Shown: positions 6,423 to 20,719 of the stretch, in pieces
How positions within the stretch are numbered: the stretch's first letter is position 1
How the letters are laid out: each line of letters starts with the position of its first letter
Source: a virus
Reading direction: 5' to 3' (one strand)
Length of the DNA: 23,910 nucleotides
IMG/VR virus record: IMGVR_UViG_3300009786_000080
Span: 1 to 23,910 of that record
Notes under the pieces: generated by a model
Database searches by the model: none
What the model saw: only the letters and a program-made list of their open reading frames with translations
Told to the model about the DNA's origin: nothing
Translations under genes and position numbers: made by a program

Positions 6423-6839
6423 ATGGCAACCAATAGCTATAAAAGCGGCCTCGGAAACGCGGCATCTTATCAGGTTTCGGGCCTGCCTTGGGTCTCTGGA
6501 GCAATCGATGTCGCGGCCGAAGTGGCTGCTAGCGGAGGCCCCATGCTGGTTCAATTCCCATATGTCACACAATGGCTTACCATCCATAACCATGATACAG
6601 CGAATGATTGTTTCATGGCTTTTGTCTCGGGAGGTCTGCCATCCGCCGGCGGGACTAACTTTATAAAAATAAACGATGCAGGCCCAACACATCCAAACTC
6701 GCCCACTCCACTGCGCTGGAAAGTTACTGAAATATGGATAGAGGGGCCATCGACAGATATTGATATTTTAGCCGGCCTCACCGGAATTTCACCAACTCAG
6801 ATTTTTGAAAATTGGAGCGGTAGTGCAGGCGTTGGGTAA
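6423..6839 (+). CDS. Putative capsid decoration / virion surface protein, copy 1 of a tandem pair
   Basis: The 138-residue protein is beta-rich, with abundant Gly, Ser, Thr, Asn and Trp and few charges, and begins MATNSYKSGLGNAASYQVSG. There is no signal peptide or membrane segment. Together with the next gene it forms a tandem paralogue pair with the same beginning and the same end (GLTGISPTQIFENWSGS). The internal sequence FPYVTQWLTIHNHD (46-59) suggests a small beta-sandwich. Genes of this size, composition and position, just before scaffold and capsid, often encode decoration or head-fibre proteins; the name is an inference from those features. The start has AGGAGAT at 6410-6416, which overlaps the upstream stop and lies in the palindrome GGAGATCTCC. 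Confidence 0.7.
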   Translation: MATNSYKSGLGNAASYQVSGLPWVSGAIDVAAEVAASGGPMLVQFPYVTQWLTIHNHDTANDCFMAFVSGGLPSAGGTNFIKINDAGPTHPNSPTPLRWKVTEIWIEGPSTDIDILAGLTGISPTQIFENWSGSAGVG

Positions 6840-6858: not shown

Positions 6859-7284
6859 ATGGCAACCAATAGCTATAAAAGCGGGCTTGGAAACGCGGCC
6901 TCTTATCAGGTTTCAGCACTCCCTTTCATTTCGGGTGCAATAGACGTAAATGCGGAATCAACAGCCGGCACTGTACCGTTTAGAGTTTCTTTCCCATATG
7001 TCACACAATGGATTACCATCCATAACCATGATAATACGCTCGGTCATAATGTTTTCATGGCTTTTGTTTCTGGCGGTCTCCCATCGCAAGGTGGCACTAA
7101 CTTTATTAAAGTTATTGACGCTGGCAACCCGGGCCCGCCCAATTCACCGCCGCCATTATATTGGAAAGTTACTGAAATCTGGCTAGAGGGAACAGCTGAT
7201 GAAGTTGATATCGTTGCAGGCCTCACCGGAATTTCACCAACTCAGATTTTTGAAAATTGGAGCGGAAGCTCGGGAGTCGGGTAA
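6859..7284 (+). CDS. Putative capsid decoration / virion surface protein, copy 2 of a tandem pair
   Basis: This 141-residue paralogue of the preceding gene starts 19 bases after it. The first ~19 residues and the last ~24 are almost identical to copy 1, and the central part is clearly diverged: copy 1 has WLTIHNHDTANDCFMAF while copy 2 has WITIHNHDNTLGHNVFMAF with a small insertion. At DNA level 47 bases at the 3' end (7219-7265 versus 6774-6820) are identical, as are the first 26 bases. The ribosome site is AAAGGAG at 6842-6848. The pair probably arose by duplication, with the ends kept the same by selection or gene conversion. A virion-surface role is inferred from composition and location; two variants could occupy different sites on the capsid or recognise different partners. 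Confidence 0.7.
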   Translation: MATNSYKSGLGNAASYQVSALPFISGAIDVNAESTAGTVPFRVSFPYVTQWITIHNHDNTLGHNVFMAFVSGGLPSQGGTNFIKVIDAGNPGPPNSPPPLYWKVTEIWLEGTADEVDIVAGLTGISPTQIFENWSGSSGVG

Positions 7285-16153: not shown

Positions 16154-16741
16154 ATGCCCGCAGTATCTAATTTTTGGACCACCCCCACAGGCGGCGACGG
16201 AAGAGATCCGAAAAGACAATATAGATTTCTTGTCTATTTAAATGGGATGGCCTCCGGCGCGACATGGTATGCCAAATCATGTAAAAAGCCCGAGATTACA
16301 ATCTCGTCCATCGAACATAACTATTTGAATCATAAATTCTACTATCCCGGTCGCGTAGAGTGGGGTGAAGTTAGCGTAGTTTTAGTAGACCCAGTATCTC
16401 CAGACGCAGCTGCCCAAACCGCTAAGATAATCCAAGCTTCCGGCTATTCCCCTCCGGCGACCCCGAATGATACAACCACTATATCAAAGGCTGCCGCCGT
16501 CCAAAACTTGGTAAGCGTGATAATTCAGCAAATCGATGGAAAGGGTGCGATGGTGGAGCAATGGACGCTTCAGAATGCCTTCATTATCGGAGTGTCTTAT
16601 GGAGAGTTAGATTATAGTGGAGACGACTTAACCGAAATTACGCTCAATCTTCGTTATGATTGGGCCGAATTGAAAGATTCCACTGATAAGGAATGGTTCG
16701 CTGCGGTTGTAACTCCAGTAACGAAGCCAACGCCAACATAG
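16154..16741 (+). CDS. Tail tube protein (gp19-like)
   Basis: This 195-residue protein builds the inner tube of the tail; T4 gp19 has 163 residues. The typical order is present: an N-terminal strand region with DPKRQYRFLVYLNG (18-31), AKSCKKPEITISSIEHNYLN (40-59), FYYPGRVEWGEVSVVLVDP (62-80) and, near the end, NAFIIGVSYGELDYSGDDLT (141-160) with EITLNLRYDWAE. These are strands of the beta-barrel tube fold also found in T6SS Hcp. The residues about 100-115 (Pro/Thr/Asn) look like an extra loop. I used ATG 16154; ATG 16147 is closed by a stop seven codons on. GGGAGAT at 16139-16145 is the ribosome site. It directly follows the sheath gene. Confidence 0.9.
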   Translation: MPAVSNFWTTPTGGDGRDPKRQYRFLVYLNGMASGATWYAKSCKKPEITISSIEHNYLNHKFYYPGRVEWGEVSVVLVDPVSPDAAAQTAKIIQASGYSPPATPNDTTTISKAAAVQNLVSVIIQQIDGKGAMVEQWTLQNAFIIGVSYGELDYSGDDLTEITLNLRYDWAELKDSTDKEWFAAVVTPVTKPTPT

Positions 16742-16769: not shown

Positions 16770-16783
16770 AGAGGTGTTATTTG
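16770..16783 (+). promoter_or_regulatory. Ribosome-binding site that selects a TTG start
   Basis: AGAGGTG at 16770-16776 is followed after 4 bases by TTG at 16781. No in-frame ATG occurs until codon 67, which lies after the conserved LPSEGKLYSDTHPL segment, so TTG must be the start of the gp26-like gene. It is the only gene in the window that clearly needs a non-ATG start. Confidence 0.7.
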
Positions 16784-17644
16784 GCTAGAAATAATAGGGA
16801 AAGGACAGGAGGCGCCGCGAAGGGCAGCCCGAGTCCCGCAAGCACTGGAGCCGGTGTACCCGAAAATGGCTCTTTAAACTTTTCGATTCCGACAGAATTT
16901 GTGGAACTCCCTTCCGAGGGGAAATTATATTCCGACACACATCCCCTGTTTGATCAATCGCATATCGAAATTCGACACATGACAGCAAAAGATGAGGATA
17001 TTCTTTCTTCACGTACATTGCTAAAGCAAGGCGTAGCTTTGGACCGCCTTTTACAAAATATTGTGGTCAATAAAGCAATCCCTCCCGAGAGTTTATATGT
17101 GGGAGATAAGAACGCCATTTTGGTGGCGGCACGTATTAGCAGCTATGGCGCAGACTATAAAACTAATATGGTTTGCCCGACTTGTTATACGAATCAAGAA
17201 GTTTTATTTGATTTACAGGAACAGAATATTTATAAAGGTGATGATTTCAAGAATTATGATATTCGATCAACCCCGGAGGGCACCTATATTATAAAAATTC
17301 CCACCATGGGTCTCGATATTGAAGTTCGGCTATTAACTGGAAAGCAGGAAAATCATCTAGCCAAACAGGCAGAGAAAAAGAAAAAACAGAAACTTCCAGA
17401 AACGATGACAACCGATCAATTTAAAGTTATAATTGTCTCAGTCAATGGCCATACCGAAAGATCAAATATTACATCTTTAATTGATTTTATGCCGGCGAAA
17501 GACGCGCGCTACCTTCGAAGCGCCTATGAGTGTATCAATCCCAAGTTAGATTTAAAACAACATTTCACTTGCGAAACTTGCGGATTTGAGACTGAAGCAT
17601 TGGAGGTTCCGTTTACGACGGACTTTTTTTGGCCTAAACAATAA
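16781..17644 (+). CDS. Baseplate hub protein (gp26-like, T4_baseplate family) with two CxxC motifs
   Basis: This 287-residue protein resembles the T4 baseplate-hub family (gp26; 208 residues in T4). The hallmark is FVELPSEGKLYSDTHPL (40-56), then IEIRHMTAKDEDILSSRTLL (62-81), LDRLLQNIVVNK (88-99) and VGDKNAILVAARISSYGADY (107-126). It carries a CPTC (132-135) and a CETC (264-267), which together look like a zinc ribbon. The first 36 residues are Gly/Ala/Pro/Ser-rich and probably disordered. In T4, gp26 belongs to the hub-assembly group and relates to hub and tape-measure assembly. Here the gene follows the tube and precedes a +1-frame overlapping small ORF and then the tape measure, the place of tail-assembly chaperone genes in many long-tailed phages. 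Starts at TTG. Confidence 0.82.
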   Translation: MARNNRERTGGAAKGSPSPASTGAGVPENGSLNFSIPTEFVELPSEGKLYSDTHPLFDQSHIEIRHMTAKDEDILSSRTLLKQGVALDRLLQNIVVNKAIPPESLYVGDKNAILVAARISSYGADYKTNMVCPTCYTNQEVLFDLQEQNIYKGDDFKNYDIRSTPEGTYIIKIPTMGLDIEVRLLTGKQENHLAKQAEKKKKQKLPETMTTDQFKVIIVSVNGHTERSNITSLIDFMPAKDARYLRSAYECINPKLDLKQHFTCETCGFETEALEVPFTTDFFWPKQ

Positions 17645-17855
17645 ATATATTGAAAGTGTATATGAAGAAATGTTTCTGCTCCAATATCATATGGGGTGGT
17701 CATTTATAGAAGCCTACAACCTTGCTATCACCATCCGAAGATGGTATCTGAAACGCTTGCAAACACAGTTTGAAAAAGAAGCTGAAGAGACAAAAAGGGC
17801 ACAAGGCAACTCGAACCCGGCACGAACTCCTCCAAAGCGACCTCCCGGGCAGTAG
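17586..17855 (+). CDS. Small ORF overlapping the gp26-like gene in the +1 frame (possible chaperone extension)
   Basis: The frame is open from TTG 17586 to TAG 17855, 89 codons, overlapping the previous gene by 59 bases. The protein-like part begins near 17640: YIESVYEEMFLLQYHMGW then FIEAYNLAITIRRWYLKRLQ, followed by a Lys/Glu helix and a Pro/Arg/Ala tail. This pattern (aromatic, 'HMGWS', then a helix with RRWY) is typical of small chaperone-like proteins downstream of gp26-type and tail-assembly genes. The only in-frame starts are TTG 17586 and ATG 17670; neither has a convincing ribosome site, and the ATG removes part of the conserved-looking start. A T7 run at 17624-17630 lies in the overlap, so production by +1 (or -2) frameshifting from the gp26-like gene is an option. 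The start is therefore uncertain. Confidence 0.6.
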   Translation: MRLKHWRFRLRRTFFGLNNKYIESVYEEMFLLQYHMGWSFIEAYNLAITIRRWYLKRLQTQFEKEAEETKRAQGNSNPARTPPKRPPGQ

Positions 17856-17857
17856 AT

Positions 17858-17892
17858 AGGGTCAGATCTTTATAGGTCTGACCTTATTTTTT
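17858..17892 (+). terminator. Intrinsic terminator after the hub genes
   Basis: GGTCAGATC (17860-17868) pairs with GGTCTGACC (17875-17883), one T-G pair, around a TTTATA loop; outer A-G and T-T positions extend it to 11 pairs. TTATTTTTT follows. It starts 3 bases after the small ORF's stop. This is a good Rho-independent terminator, second only to the one after the capsid gene. Confidence 0.85.
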
Positions 17893-17946: not shown

Positions 17947-18300
17947 ATGGAATCTCTTAACGAAGAACAACTCGTATCTATAGAAATTGATTTGGATGAA
18001 CTAAAAAAGAACCAACTTAATGAAAGTTGGTTAGCTATGTTTGGCGGTGTTATCAAACTCATACTAGGCAAAATGTTTTCTCCAGCCTATGTCAAGCCTG
18101 CAGGCGGCTTTGTTAGTGTTAGGGGATCCCGAAATGAGGTTAATTCTTTTGCTCGTACTTTAGGCCGCGAAAAGAAATATTTGGAAGCACTTACCAAATT
18201 TGGATTAGATGATCCGCGTACTTTTCAAAATAAATCAAAACTCACCTTGGCTATTAAAAACTTTGAAGCTCAAACAGGTTTGATTTGGCCCTTTAAATAA
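17947..18300 (+). CDS. Small hypothetical protein upstream of the tape measure
   Basis: This 117-residue protein is not assigned to a family. An acidic N-terminus (MESLNEEQLVSIEIDLDELK) is followed by a hydrophobic helix (WLAMFGGVIKLILGKMF, 28-44), a Gly/Val strand region (GGFVSVRGSRNEV, 53-65), a basic helix (FARTLGREKKYLEALTKFGL, 68-87) and a compact end DDPRTFQNKSKLTLAIKNFE then GLIWPFK. AAGGAA lies 7 bases before ATG. It shares the tape measure's transcription unit and sits 16 bases before it. Chaperone or inner-tail proteins commonly occupy this spot, but the sequence gives no direct proof. Confidence 0.72.
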   Translation: MESLNEEQLVSIEIDLDELKKNQLNESWLAMFGGVIKLILGKMFSPAYVKPAGGFVSVRGSRNEVNSFARTLGREKKYLEALTKFGLDDPRTFQNKSKLTLAIKNFEAQTGLIWPFK

Positions 18301-18316
18301 TGGGAATATCAAATAA

Positions 18317-20719
18317 ATGGCTGAAAGCGTAGATGATGTATTAAAAAGACTTGGAGTCGCGGAAGATAAACGCGCTGACGTTCATGTTGCCATTGCCAAT
18401 CAACGCAAGAGATCCACGGAATATCTAGAAGAAGATATCGTAGAGATGCAGAAGAAACTTGATTATGAAGAGCAAATCCTCGGGTCAAAGAAAAGTCAGT
18501 TAGAGATTTATGAATTAACAAATAAAATAACGGCCGCCGAAGGCAAGCGCGACGTATTAAGGCTCGAAAACGACCTTGAAAAATATACAATAAATACCGA
18601 ATCATATAAAATCACTCTAAAAGCACTTAATACAGCCAGGGACCACCTACGCGTCGACGAACAACGCAATGCAAATTTAAGAGAATGGAGGGACACATTC
18701 AAGAGTATAACTGGCATTTCCAATGACTGGGAAAATAGTTGGTGGGGAAAACTAGCAAACGACCCGCAGGCTTTTAATCAAGCGTTTAAAGAAACCTTCA
18801 ACGCAATGAATATTCTTCATTCAACATCAGCTAAGATCGTCGAAGGCTCGATTGCCATGGCCGCTGCCCAGGACCAGGCTTTAGTAGGGTTCAATGTTGC
18901 TACGGGAGCCTCTGCGAAGTACGGAGAGGAGTTAATAGCTTTAGAACAGGGTATGTATACTCTTGGTGTGGGACTTGAAGAGGCTTCTGCGACCATGGGC
19001 GCCCTGGTTCAAAATGTGTATAACTTAGAGTCTGTATCTAAAAAGAGTCGGGTAGAGCTAGAACAAACAACAGCACTCTTAGAAAAAATGGGAGTAGACG
19101 CAAGTGTCACCACCCAAAACTGGCAGTTCCTCACAGCCGCGATGGGAGTCTCTGGCGAGCAAGCTACAAAAATGCAGCAAGACATGTTTTTAACCGCTCA
19201 ATCTCTTGGTCGACCAGCGAAAGAAATGGCTACGGCATTCGAAGCCAATCGAAAAGTTATGGCTAAGTTTGGGAAAGAAAGCACCGAGGTTTTCAAAAAA
19301 CTATATGTTAATGCCACTAAAGCCTCGATGTCGGTAGAACAACTTTTGAGCATCACAGAAAAGTTTGATACTTTTGAGGGCGCTGCTACATCAGTAGGAA
19401 AACTAAATGCTATTCTCGGGGGCCCCTTCCTGAATTCAATGGATATGGTGATGTCTACCGATCCAACCGAAAGAATGAAAAAGCTATCAGATGCGGTTAA
19501 TAATGCGGGTTTAAGTTTCGATGATATGAGTTATTATCAGCGTAAGGCGTTGGCGGACTCCATGGGATTAGCCGATGTTAGCGAACTTGCTCTTTTAATG
19601 GCTGGTGATTTTGATACTATGACTGACAGCCAAGAAATGAGTCAAGAACAATATCAAGAACTCGCCGCCCAAACAAAAGACTTTAATACGGTTATGGATG
19701 AAATGAAACAAATCGGCCGTATGTTGGTGGTTGATTTCTTACAGCCCCTTGTCACAGTCCTCAAAACAGTATTTGAATACCTGCAAATGGCAGCACCCGT
19801 GATCAAAGTATTAGCTGTTGGTATCCCCGTCCTATCAGCCGCCCTGGCGATCAATGCAATAAAGTGGAAGGTACTCGCCGGCGCCATCAGGGAGACCAAT
19901 TTTGCTATGAAAATGGGCCCGGGCGGGTTTATTAGTCTGATGGTTACATTAATAGCAATGAGTACTCAAATGAATGGGTTTTTTAGAGTCCTAACGGCTG
20001 GTCTTATAATGGCAACAGCAGCGTGGATGGCTTTGAACGTCGCGAGCGGCGGATGGATGTATATTCTGGGAGGCCTTTTAAGTGTTCTTATCATGCTTAT
20101 TGCATGGGTATTCCAAAACGATGTCGGGGCCTCCACCTTCCTTGAGGGTCTTTTTAAGATGGGGCATGCTTTTATGGAAATAGGTATAGGTATGTTATTT
20201 GCCGCTGCTGGAGTTTGGCTGCTATTACCGGCACTCGCAGCGCTTCTTATGATGTCATTGCCTCTTCTGGCGGCCACTCTACCGGGCGGCGCATTTTGGA
20301 GCTTGTCTACTGGTCTGGGGTGGATAGCTGATTCTATGAATAAGATGGATACTACCAAACTGGGAGCATTAACGGGTCTTTTCAAAGCATTGGCTGAAAT
20401 AACTGGCGAAGCTGCTGAAAATATCAGGGCAATGGGAACAGGAATAGCCGCCATGGGCGCCGGATTTACGATGATGTCGATGAGTCCTTTGGGAATAGCC
20501 TTGGCACCGGCGCTCCTCGCGGGAGGGACCGTGACTTCCATTGGTGGTCCACCCCGAGTCCAAGCAGGATCAGGAGCCCGTGGTGCTGTTGGAGGAGTCC
20601 GCACAGGAGGACGAGAAAAGCTTTTACCCCTTACGGTCAAAGTGGAGTTGGACGGTAATAAACTGGGTAGTTTTGTGAAGGACGTTGTAGTTAAAGAACT
20701 CAATGTTAATAAGGGATAA
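18317..20719 (+). CDS. Tail tape-measure protein
   Basis: This protein sets tail length and is ejected or rearranged on infection. At 800 residues it is the longest protein of the tail-interior set. Residues about 1-115 are a long charged coiled coil (EEDIVEMQKKLDYEEQILGS). A helical, Ala/Met-rich middle (about 160-470) follows, then a cluster of hydrophobic segments at about 495-520, 535-600 (for example GWMYILGGLLSVLIMLIAWV) and 615-660, and a Gly/Ala-rich segment near 720-755, ending in a short charged region. This coiled-coil plus membrane-spanning-helix design is usual for tape measures. It lies between tube/hub genes and baseplate genes as expected. At roughly 1.5 A per residue an 800-residue ruler would predict a tail tube near 120 nm, an inference from the known scaling. 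The ribosome site (GGGAATA) is weak. Confidence 0.88.
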   Translation: MAESVDDVLKRLGVAEDKRADVHVAIANQRKRSTEYLEEDIVEMQKKLDYEEQILGSKKSQLEIYELTNKITAAEGKRDVLRLENDLEKYTINTESYKITLKALNTARDHLRVDEQRNANLREWRDTFKSITGISNDWENSWWGKLANDPQAFNQAFKETFNAMNILHSTSAKIVEGSIAMAAAQDQALVGFNVATGASAKYGEELIALEQGMYTLGVGLEEASATMGALVQNVYNLESVSKKSRVELEQTTALLEKMGVDASVTTQNWQFLTAAMGVSGEQATKMQQDMFLTAQSLGRPAKEMATAFEANRKVMAKFGKESTEVFKKLYVNATKASMSVEQLLSITEKFDTFEGAATSVGKLNAILGGPFLNSMDMVMSTDPTERMKKLSDAVNNAGLSFDDMSYYQRKALADSMGLADVSELALLMAGDFDTMTDSQEMSQEQYQELAAQTKDFNTVMDEMKQIGRMLVVDFLQPLVTVLKTVFEYLQMAAPVIKVLAVGIPVLSAALAINAIKWKVLAGAIRETNFAMKMGPGGFISLMVTLIAMSTQMNGFFRVLTAGLIMATAAWMALNVASGGWMYILGGLLSVLIMLIAWVFQNDVGASTFLEGLFKMGHAFMEIGIGMLFAAAGVWLLLPALAALLMMSLPLLAATLPGGAFWSLSTGLGWIADSMNKMDTTKLGALTGLFKALAEITGEAAENIRAMGTGIAAMGAGFTMMSMSPLGIALAPALLAGGTVTSIGGPPRVQAGSGARGAVGGVRTGGREKLLPLTVKVELDGNKLGSFVKDVVVKELNVNKG

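Follow-up and report, generated by a model that had tools for sequence, protein, structure and literature searches.

Probable programmed +1 frameshifting in a putative tail assembly chaperone gene of the PF12322 family

The window, by which we mean the whole stretch of viral DNA analysed here (23,910 nucleotides; IMG/VR record IMGVR_UViG_3300009786_000080, positions 1 to 23,910), carries a gp26-like gene whose 3′ end is overlapped by a small open reading frame (ORF). The gp26-like ORF closes with GAC TTT TTT TGG CCT AAA CAA TAA, its stop codon lying at 17642–17644. An initial annotation of the sequence had pointed out that seven T are read here as TTT TTT TGG and that an ORF in the +1 frame overlaps the end of the gene by 59 nt; the letters of the window confirm both. 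It had also estimated a joined product of about 357 residues, and a conceptual +1 fusion comes to exactly 357, with ...TTDFFGLNNK... at the junction. The locus comprises the following features.

16154–16741, + strand: tail tube gene, upstream of the gp26-like ORF (PHROG 4542, tail tube, 3.9e-24)
16781–17644, + strand: gp26-like ORF in frame 0, the putative short form (TAC-N), 287 aa, TTG start
17586–17855, + strand: +1-frame ORF, overlapping the gp26-like ORF by 59 nt
17602–17607, + strand: GGAGGT, Shine-Dalgarno-like, 19 nt before the P-site TTT, or 4 nt without the 15-nt hairpin
17608–17622, + strand: hairpin TCCGTT-TAC-GACGGA from RNA folding, adjoining GGAGGT and ending one base before the T run
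17624–17632, + strand: candidate shift site TTT TTT TGG, the run of seven T being 17624–17630
17631–17855, + strand: +1-frame tail (GLNNKYIESVYEEM...), C-terminal part of the putative long form (TAC-NC), stop at 17853–17855
17854–17889, + strand: terminator-like hairpin with a T tail immediately 3′ of the +1 stop, strong in a terminator scan
17947–18300, + strand: 117-aa ORF between the putative chaperone and tape measure genes, no function assigned
18317–20719, + strand: 800-aa ORF, a probable tape measure judging by its size and place

The gene pair is thus placed between the tail tube gene and the probable tape measure gene, with one 117-aa ORF intervening that had no Pfam or PHROGs match at E 1. 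The 800-aa ORF likewise gave no clear family match in Pfam or PHROGs; in three relatives (L088, L091 and L096) a tape measure is annotated at the equivalent position. Elsewhere in the window, at 6423–6839 and 6859–7284, two tandem ORFs have nearly identical starts (MATNSYKSGLGNAASYQVS...) and probably represent a duplicated structural gene.

The gp26-like protein falls in family PF12322, T4_baseplate (2.9e-13, 50.5 bits against a cut-off of 24.5), and matches PHROG 150, baseplate hub (2.7e-16). We modelled the gp26-like part and the +1 tail separately, with pLDDT values of 85 and 86, respectively. Over residues 25–124, the gp26-like model is nearest to the HK97 tail assembly chaperone (2ob9, Z 5.7) and to YqbN (3klu, Z 5.5), a chaperone relative; the next chain scored 2.4, and the Foldseek E-value was 1.8. 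A Foldseek search of the PDB with this model returned nothing at E 0.001 or better, and the gp26-like profile found no relative among PDB sequences. Among viral models, 63 matched at E 0.001, many of them PF12322-like, for example that of SP-15. The +1 tail is predicted to form three helices. It yielded nothing notable against the PDB by sequence or fold, and its profile showed no link to the C-terminus of T4 gp51. Searched alone, the small ORF gave weak matches to DUF6760 (0.0046) and to PHROG 634, baseplate hub assembly catalyst (0.097). The +1 tail likewise matched DUF6760 weakly (0.0034), as did 30 of the 48 relatives' tails that were submitted, out of 95. None of the papers searched names DUF6760, and a nucleotide-level search of phage records gave no match.

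This arrangement recalls lambda G/GT, which, in passages of a review (PMC5009743), is likewise sited between the tail tube and tape measure genes and specifies a short protein and a frameshift-extended form; likeness of this type does not require sequence similarity. The parallel had been drawn in the initial annotation and fits in gene order as well as in the nearest neighbours of the predicted N-terminal gp26-like fold. Unlike lambda, in which the shift is −1, the window would use +1, in a gene of the T4-like PF12322 family. The same review describes −1, −2 and +1 shifts in phage tail chaperone genes (PMC5009743, in part).

We collected 326 loci, repeats included, which represent 215 distinct 210-nt stretches, and from these a non-redundant set of 144 loci (<85% identity; 56 in group A, 51 in group B, 27 in group C and 10 in group G). 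Because the search pattern required Phe or Leu, then an aromatic or similar residue, then Pro, Thr or Ser, the tally covers only loci with such an end; no stop-containing locus of the first two scans was missed by it. Group A comprises window-type loci. A scan with the gp26-like protein gave 80, of which 78 had a gp26 stop, and in all 78, as in the window, the gene finishes T-rich with Phe-Phe (or Phe-Leu) Trp-Pro and the +1 frame is open across this end, leaving the contig in two. Group B, the relatives of Microcystis phage Mel-JY01, gave 78 loci with a stop out of 80, and all share the end (TTT TTT TGG CCT in 73, CTT TTT TGG in 3, TTT TTT TAC in 2). Group C holds relatives of Flavobacterium phage immuto; here 79 of 80 loci were usable, with TTT TTT TGG in 40, TTT CTT TGG in 34, TTT CTA TGG in 4 and TTT CTT TAC in 1. 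An extra scan with L025 returned 80 loci, mostly repeats of group A contigs, and genome contigs held 14, with Phe-Trp ends in 11 and TTC TTT C in 3.

From the first two scans we dropped L016, L017, L133 and L162, where the contig stops before the stop codon, and L178–L180, which are kin of 121Q with a −1 layout; from later scans, L224 and L308 had no closed ORF. Outside the tally stand L282 (RM378 itself, whose Phe-Trp-Asn end was missed by the search pattern although TTT TTT TGG is present), L188, L189 and L196 (TTC TTT CAT or TTC TTT CGG, +1 frame open) and L081–L085. The statistics given below ignore kinship among the sequences, which is handled only in a count on a FastTree tree. Named phages with the +1 layout are Mel-JY01, immuto, SP-15, LIS04, GXN1, LR756508 and RM378. 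In one Methylococcaceae MAG record of 305,838 bases, the gp26-like stretch occurs twice, near each end (L191 and L192); this record is possibly an overlapping circular phage contig.

Across the 144 loci, TTT_T or CTT_T occupies the P site in 143, the window having TTT_T. The P-site codon is TTT in 128, CTT in 15, CTA in 1 and TTC in none, and the A-site codon is TGG in 141 and TAC in 3. The longest T run measures seven in 121 loci, six in 3, four in 4 and three in 16. Directly after the site, the +1 frame reads Gly-Leu in 140 loci, Thr-Leu in 3 and Gly-His in 1, and conservation at the start of the tail takes the form F-G-L-x-x-x-Y. The frame is complete in 142 loci, where it continues beyond the site for 59 codons or more and beyond the gp26 stop for 169 nt or more; in the other 2 it runs off the contig.

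Codon choice at the junction is strongly skewed. Of the first 96 loci, 94 have TTT and 2 have CTT in the P site, compared with TTT in 678 of 934 other Phe codons of the same genes; the Pro that follows TGG is encoded by CCT in 95 of the 96, compared with 263 of 1178 elsewhere. Such choices would be expected under translation of the overlapping +1 frame (GGC CTN, Gly-Leu). In L199, the +1 Gly-Leu is retained despite a frame-0 change from Pro to Ser. Past the overlap, changes in the +1 frame follow a coding pattern, with differences of 30%, 13% and 59% at codon positions 1, 2 and 3 in group A comparisons.

The composition of the run bears on whether the ribosome or the polymerase changes frame. 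In transcriptional slippage, RNA polymerase would realign on the T run with help from the hairpin and drop one U, and normal translation would then yield the long form. The terminator scan does find the hairpin at 17608–17622 together with the seven T in the window, a T at −7, by which the run would become longer, is seen in 1 of the 144 loci, and a figure legend reports that a nascent stem-loop stimulates polymerase slippage in a Roseiflexus IS (PMC5009743). Hairpin and homopolymer do not, however, occur together in every member: the run is just three T in 16 loci and four T in 4, with the +1 frame intact, and changes between intact and broken runs number at least eight on the FastTree tree. 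TTC is never found at the P site, though C is tolerated elsewhere in the run (at the third base of the first codon in 4 loci, at its first base in 3, as CTT or CTA in 14 group C loci and as CTT in 2 group A loci). The short runs, their repeated changes and the missing P-site TTC argue, the last on pairing grounds, for a slip of the ribosome, and we regard slippage of the polymerase as improbable.

A −2 ribosomal shift on the T run, which would reach the same frame with one Phe added, had been offered in the initial annotation beside the +1 slip. Both tRNA-Phe can re-pair on the seven T after a −2 step, and phage Mu uses such a shift (PMC5009743, in part). Of the two slips, +1 is the one that the relatives favour: TTC TTT TGG, present in 4 of 144 loci, pairs well after +1, whereas −2 would place tRNA-Phe on TCT, and for TTT CTT TGG, still compatible with −2, a +1 step of the RF2 kind gives the better pairing. 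By these pairing arguments the −2 shift, too, is improbable. The single locus with CTA at the P site is not explained by a simple slip on that codon, but would be by one on the preceding TTT (TTT C). L087 near 3740 and four group C loci have a junction of TTT CTA followed by TTC or TGG, where ribosomes may shift on TTT C while the Leu codon CTA waits. We also considered a −1 slippery heptamer (X XXY YYZ) and rejected it for the window, whose −1 frame opens only 4 nt before the gp26 stop, after the T run, and is closed 65 nt past that stop.

If the small ORF were instead an independent gene, its translation would begin within or beyond the gp26 end, either from a ribosome site of its own or through coupling. 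In the window, the candidate starts are TTG 17586 and ATG 17670, at offsets of −44 and +40 from TGG, and neither has a Shine-Dalgarno match, which bears out the initial annotation. Between the last +1-frame stop and the site, ATG, GTG and TTG are all absent from 39 of 144 loci, and in 24 of 144 a +1-frame stop lies at most 17 nt 5′ of TGG. Among the 96 loci examined closely, 24 have no upstream start, 57 have only starts without a Shine-Dalgarno match and 15 have some start with one; except in these 15, we find a second ORF that overlaps in another frame without a usable start of its own and a conserved shift site at the overlap. Of the starts 3′ of the site in these 96 loci, a single one has a Shine-Dalgarno match (L149 at +49), and starting there would delete the conserved F-G-L-x-x-x-Y in each case.

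The small ORF is nonetheless a separate gene in public annotation (Mel-JY01, immuto, SP-15), and 7 of 56 group A loci have GGGGAGGT followed within 2–3 bases by a +1-frame ATG or GTG. In L021, L032, L035, L050, L052, L355 and L361, GGGGAGGTAA or a similar sequence adjoins a +1-frame ATG or GTG, 26 nt before TGG, with the seven T kept; in this clade the tail may have an independent start. Relatives with a start and ribosome site of their own, or without the T run, had been named in the initial annotation as counting against a frameshift. Both kinds exist: the 15 of 96 loci include the clade with GGGGAGGTAA before [A/G]TG, and the T run is broken in some relatives, yet the +1 frame is kept there. 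For the locus as a whole, we consider an independent gene slightly more improbable than polymerase slippage or the −2 shift. A homopolymer error in assembly, with the true gene in one frame, is next to negligible: some sequencing methods are prone to errors in T runs, but 16 of 144 loci have no run longer than three T and the layout recurs in named isolates.

Frameshifting itself is very likely, to judge from the relatives' conserved site, their +1 reading and the missing starts. The central proposal of the initial annotation, that a shift fuses the small ORF to the gp26-like protein, is supported as the best explanation of the site, the +1 conservation and the 39 of 144 loci without a start. 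Our sequence comparisons indicate that the gene is probably a tail assembly chaperone gene decoded by programmed +1 ribosomal frameshifting into a short and a long form.

In group A, GGAGG lies at the same place in 47 of 56 loci, 6 nt further upstream in 7 and is absent in 2; from GGAGGT up to the T run, the nucleotides themselves are fixed. Codon use there departs from that elsewhere: Glu is GAG in 40 of 40 versus 37%, Pro is CCG in 32 of 47 versus 16%, and Asp is GAC in 32 of 33 versus 32%. The 18 nt before the T run have a mean folding energy of −4.75 kcal/mol, versus −0.77 with synonymous random codons (z −24, and again −24 with 56 loci), and 83% versus 8% fold at −3.5 or below; upstream controls gave z −1.0 and +0.9. 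A hairpin potential above synonymous expectation is well supported in this group. We claim the hairpin for group A only, because in group B the excess is weaker and the control is also shifted (36-nt windows, z −7.2 and control −2.6; rerun, −8.5 and −3.3), and in group C the excess at the site is no larger than that of the upstream control (z −4.6 and −4.5).

In 47 aligned group A sequences, 31 of them distinct, 81% of cells are paired versus 80% in shuffles, and slid versions of the hairpin alignment pair far less (28–56%). Compensatory change is confined to one pair, with both sides changed in two distinct rows, and the covariation score was reached by 6 of 500 shuffles. Some loci have an alternative hairpin, GGTACCG...TACC. 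With covariation this thin, any function of the hairpin is best put conditionally, and the conservation could partly reflect the linear sequence. RNA directly 3′ of the site is more stable than synonymous random sequence in groups A (z −9.8) and B (−4.2) and less clearly so in group C (−1.4, −2.4), the control being imperfect for the first 3′ window because that window overlaps the gp26 end. A consensus fold or common helix 3′ of the site was looked for in the relatives and not found.

The GGAGGT and hairpin, which are new here, probably raise the shift rate in window-like phages. According to passages of the review (PMC5009743), Shine-Dalgarno stimulators act at a spacing of 3 nt for +1 shifts and 9–14 nt for −1 shifts, and a 5′ stem-loop in T4 gene 60 helps move the ribosome forward. 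The linear distance of 19 nt between GGAGGT and the P site is outside both spacings, which counts against a role as stimulator; without the hairpin, however, it becomes 4 nt. Together with the 3-nt spacing and the gene 60 stem-loop, this prompts the tentative reading given below, in which a Shine-Dalgarno contact would be spaced by the hairpin. The RF2 (prfB) +1 cassette similarly combines a CTT_T or TTT_T site with an upstream Shine-Dalgarno-like element, CTT_U being the RF2 shift site and UUU_U occurring in a few RF2 genes (PMC5009743, in part). It differs in having a stop codon in the A site and the Shine-Dalgarno element at 3 nt, in place of TGG and 19 nt (or 4 nt) in the window.

In the mechanism that we propose, most ribosomes would read TTT TTT TGG CCT in frame and stop at 17642–17644, producing the short chaperone of 287 aa. 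A minority would pause while TTT is occupied by peptidyl-tRNA-Phe and the Trp codon is still vacant, and the tRNA-Phe would slip one base forward, from TTT at 17627–17629 to TTT at 17628–17630, while TGG waits in the A site; relatives with CTT would slip from CTT to TTT, as in the RF2 gene. Translation would pick up again at GGC CTA, so that the long form has 357 aa and ends in the predicted three-helix tail. In window-like phages, GGAGGT and the hairpin just upstream would raise the shift rate, the folded hairpin bringing the spacing to 4 nt, near the 3 nt of +1 sites. By analogy with lambda G and GT, the short form may coat the tape measure and the long form may recruit tail-tube subunits. 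More tentatively, the hairpin at 17608–17622 might loop out its 15 nt and so bring the anti-Shine-Dalgarno contact to 4 nt from the P site, or zip up behind the ribosome and push it forward, and the chaperone family might have switched between +1 (TTT/CTT TGG) and −1 (T TTT TTC) on one conserved Phe-Phe codon pair and, in T4, abandoned shifting in favour of two genes; we offer this combined reading as possible rather than likely.

In T4, genes 26 and 51, both of PF12322, lie on opposite strands; T4 therefore has two separate genes of the family, whereas the window has one gene and an out-of-frame tail. Reportedly, Vladimirov proposed T4 gp26 and gp51 as TAC-N and TAC-NC in 2022, and frameshifting is said to be conserved in several T4-like groups. 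The title of that work concerns the identification of T4-like chaperone genes (Vladimirov and others 2022), and a passage citing it mentions that certain T4-like phages have a longer, fused gene beside a short one; chaperones made by frameshifting had reportedly been proposed before for some T4-like phages (Vladimirov 2022). According to one passage of the review, G–T frameshifting is a conserved trait of long-tailed phages, 'except T4' (PMC5009743). That T4 is without this frameshift had been remarked in the initial annotation and holds, but it is not new: 26 and 51 are each a full gene of PF12322, a point on which the 2022 paper reportedly builds. We found no literature on a +1 shift in the PF12322 chaperone family, in a search that lay outside the full text of Vladimirov 2022. 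Run on 13 records, the gp26-like profile had exactly one match in 12 and none in the thirteenth, T4; a second full-length PF12322 gene, as in the T4 arrangement, was not seen in those 12 records, the window covering only a 23.9-kb fragment.

Another paper (PMC12846349, in part) speaks of known T-rich −1 signals in the TAC-N genes of T4-like phages. There, phage Adele of the Vandenendeviridae has, like the window, a conserved T-rich site at the TAC-N end, with a −1 shift at GTTTTT. Jumbo phages, which are distant relatives (121Q, RaK2, CBB, PA5oct and others), share with the window the family, the Phe-Phe end and the out-of-frame tail, but theirs is −1: their PF12322 genes have T TTT TTC and a −1-frame tail ORF in 9 of 10 records (121Q, RaK2, CBB, Vibrio 2.275, Phosso, Atu_ph07, PA5oct, SCTP-2 and LR756511), and XacN1 has T TTT TTT. 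121Q and Phosso additionally have a start codon that could serve a separate gene. Judging by the jumbo records L092–L095 and L182–L187, the shift has apparently changed direction within the family.

In the public annotations examined, the long form does not appear: the tail is a separate hypothetical protein or omitted, or the records are without annotated genes. If the gene is decoded as we propose, 'except T4' would then apply to the T4 branch only, since its wider relatives in the sequence collections searched carry the frameshift layout. One protein family would then hold a natural series of +1 shift, −1 shift and two genes, in which the direction of frameshifting has changed, together with a candidate 5′ stimulator.
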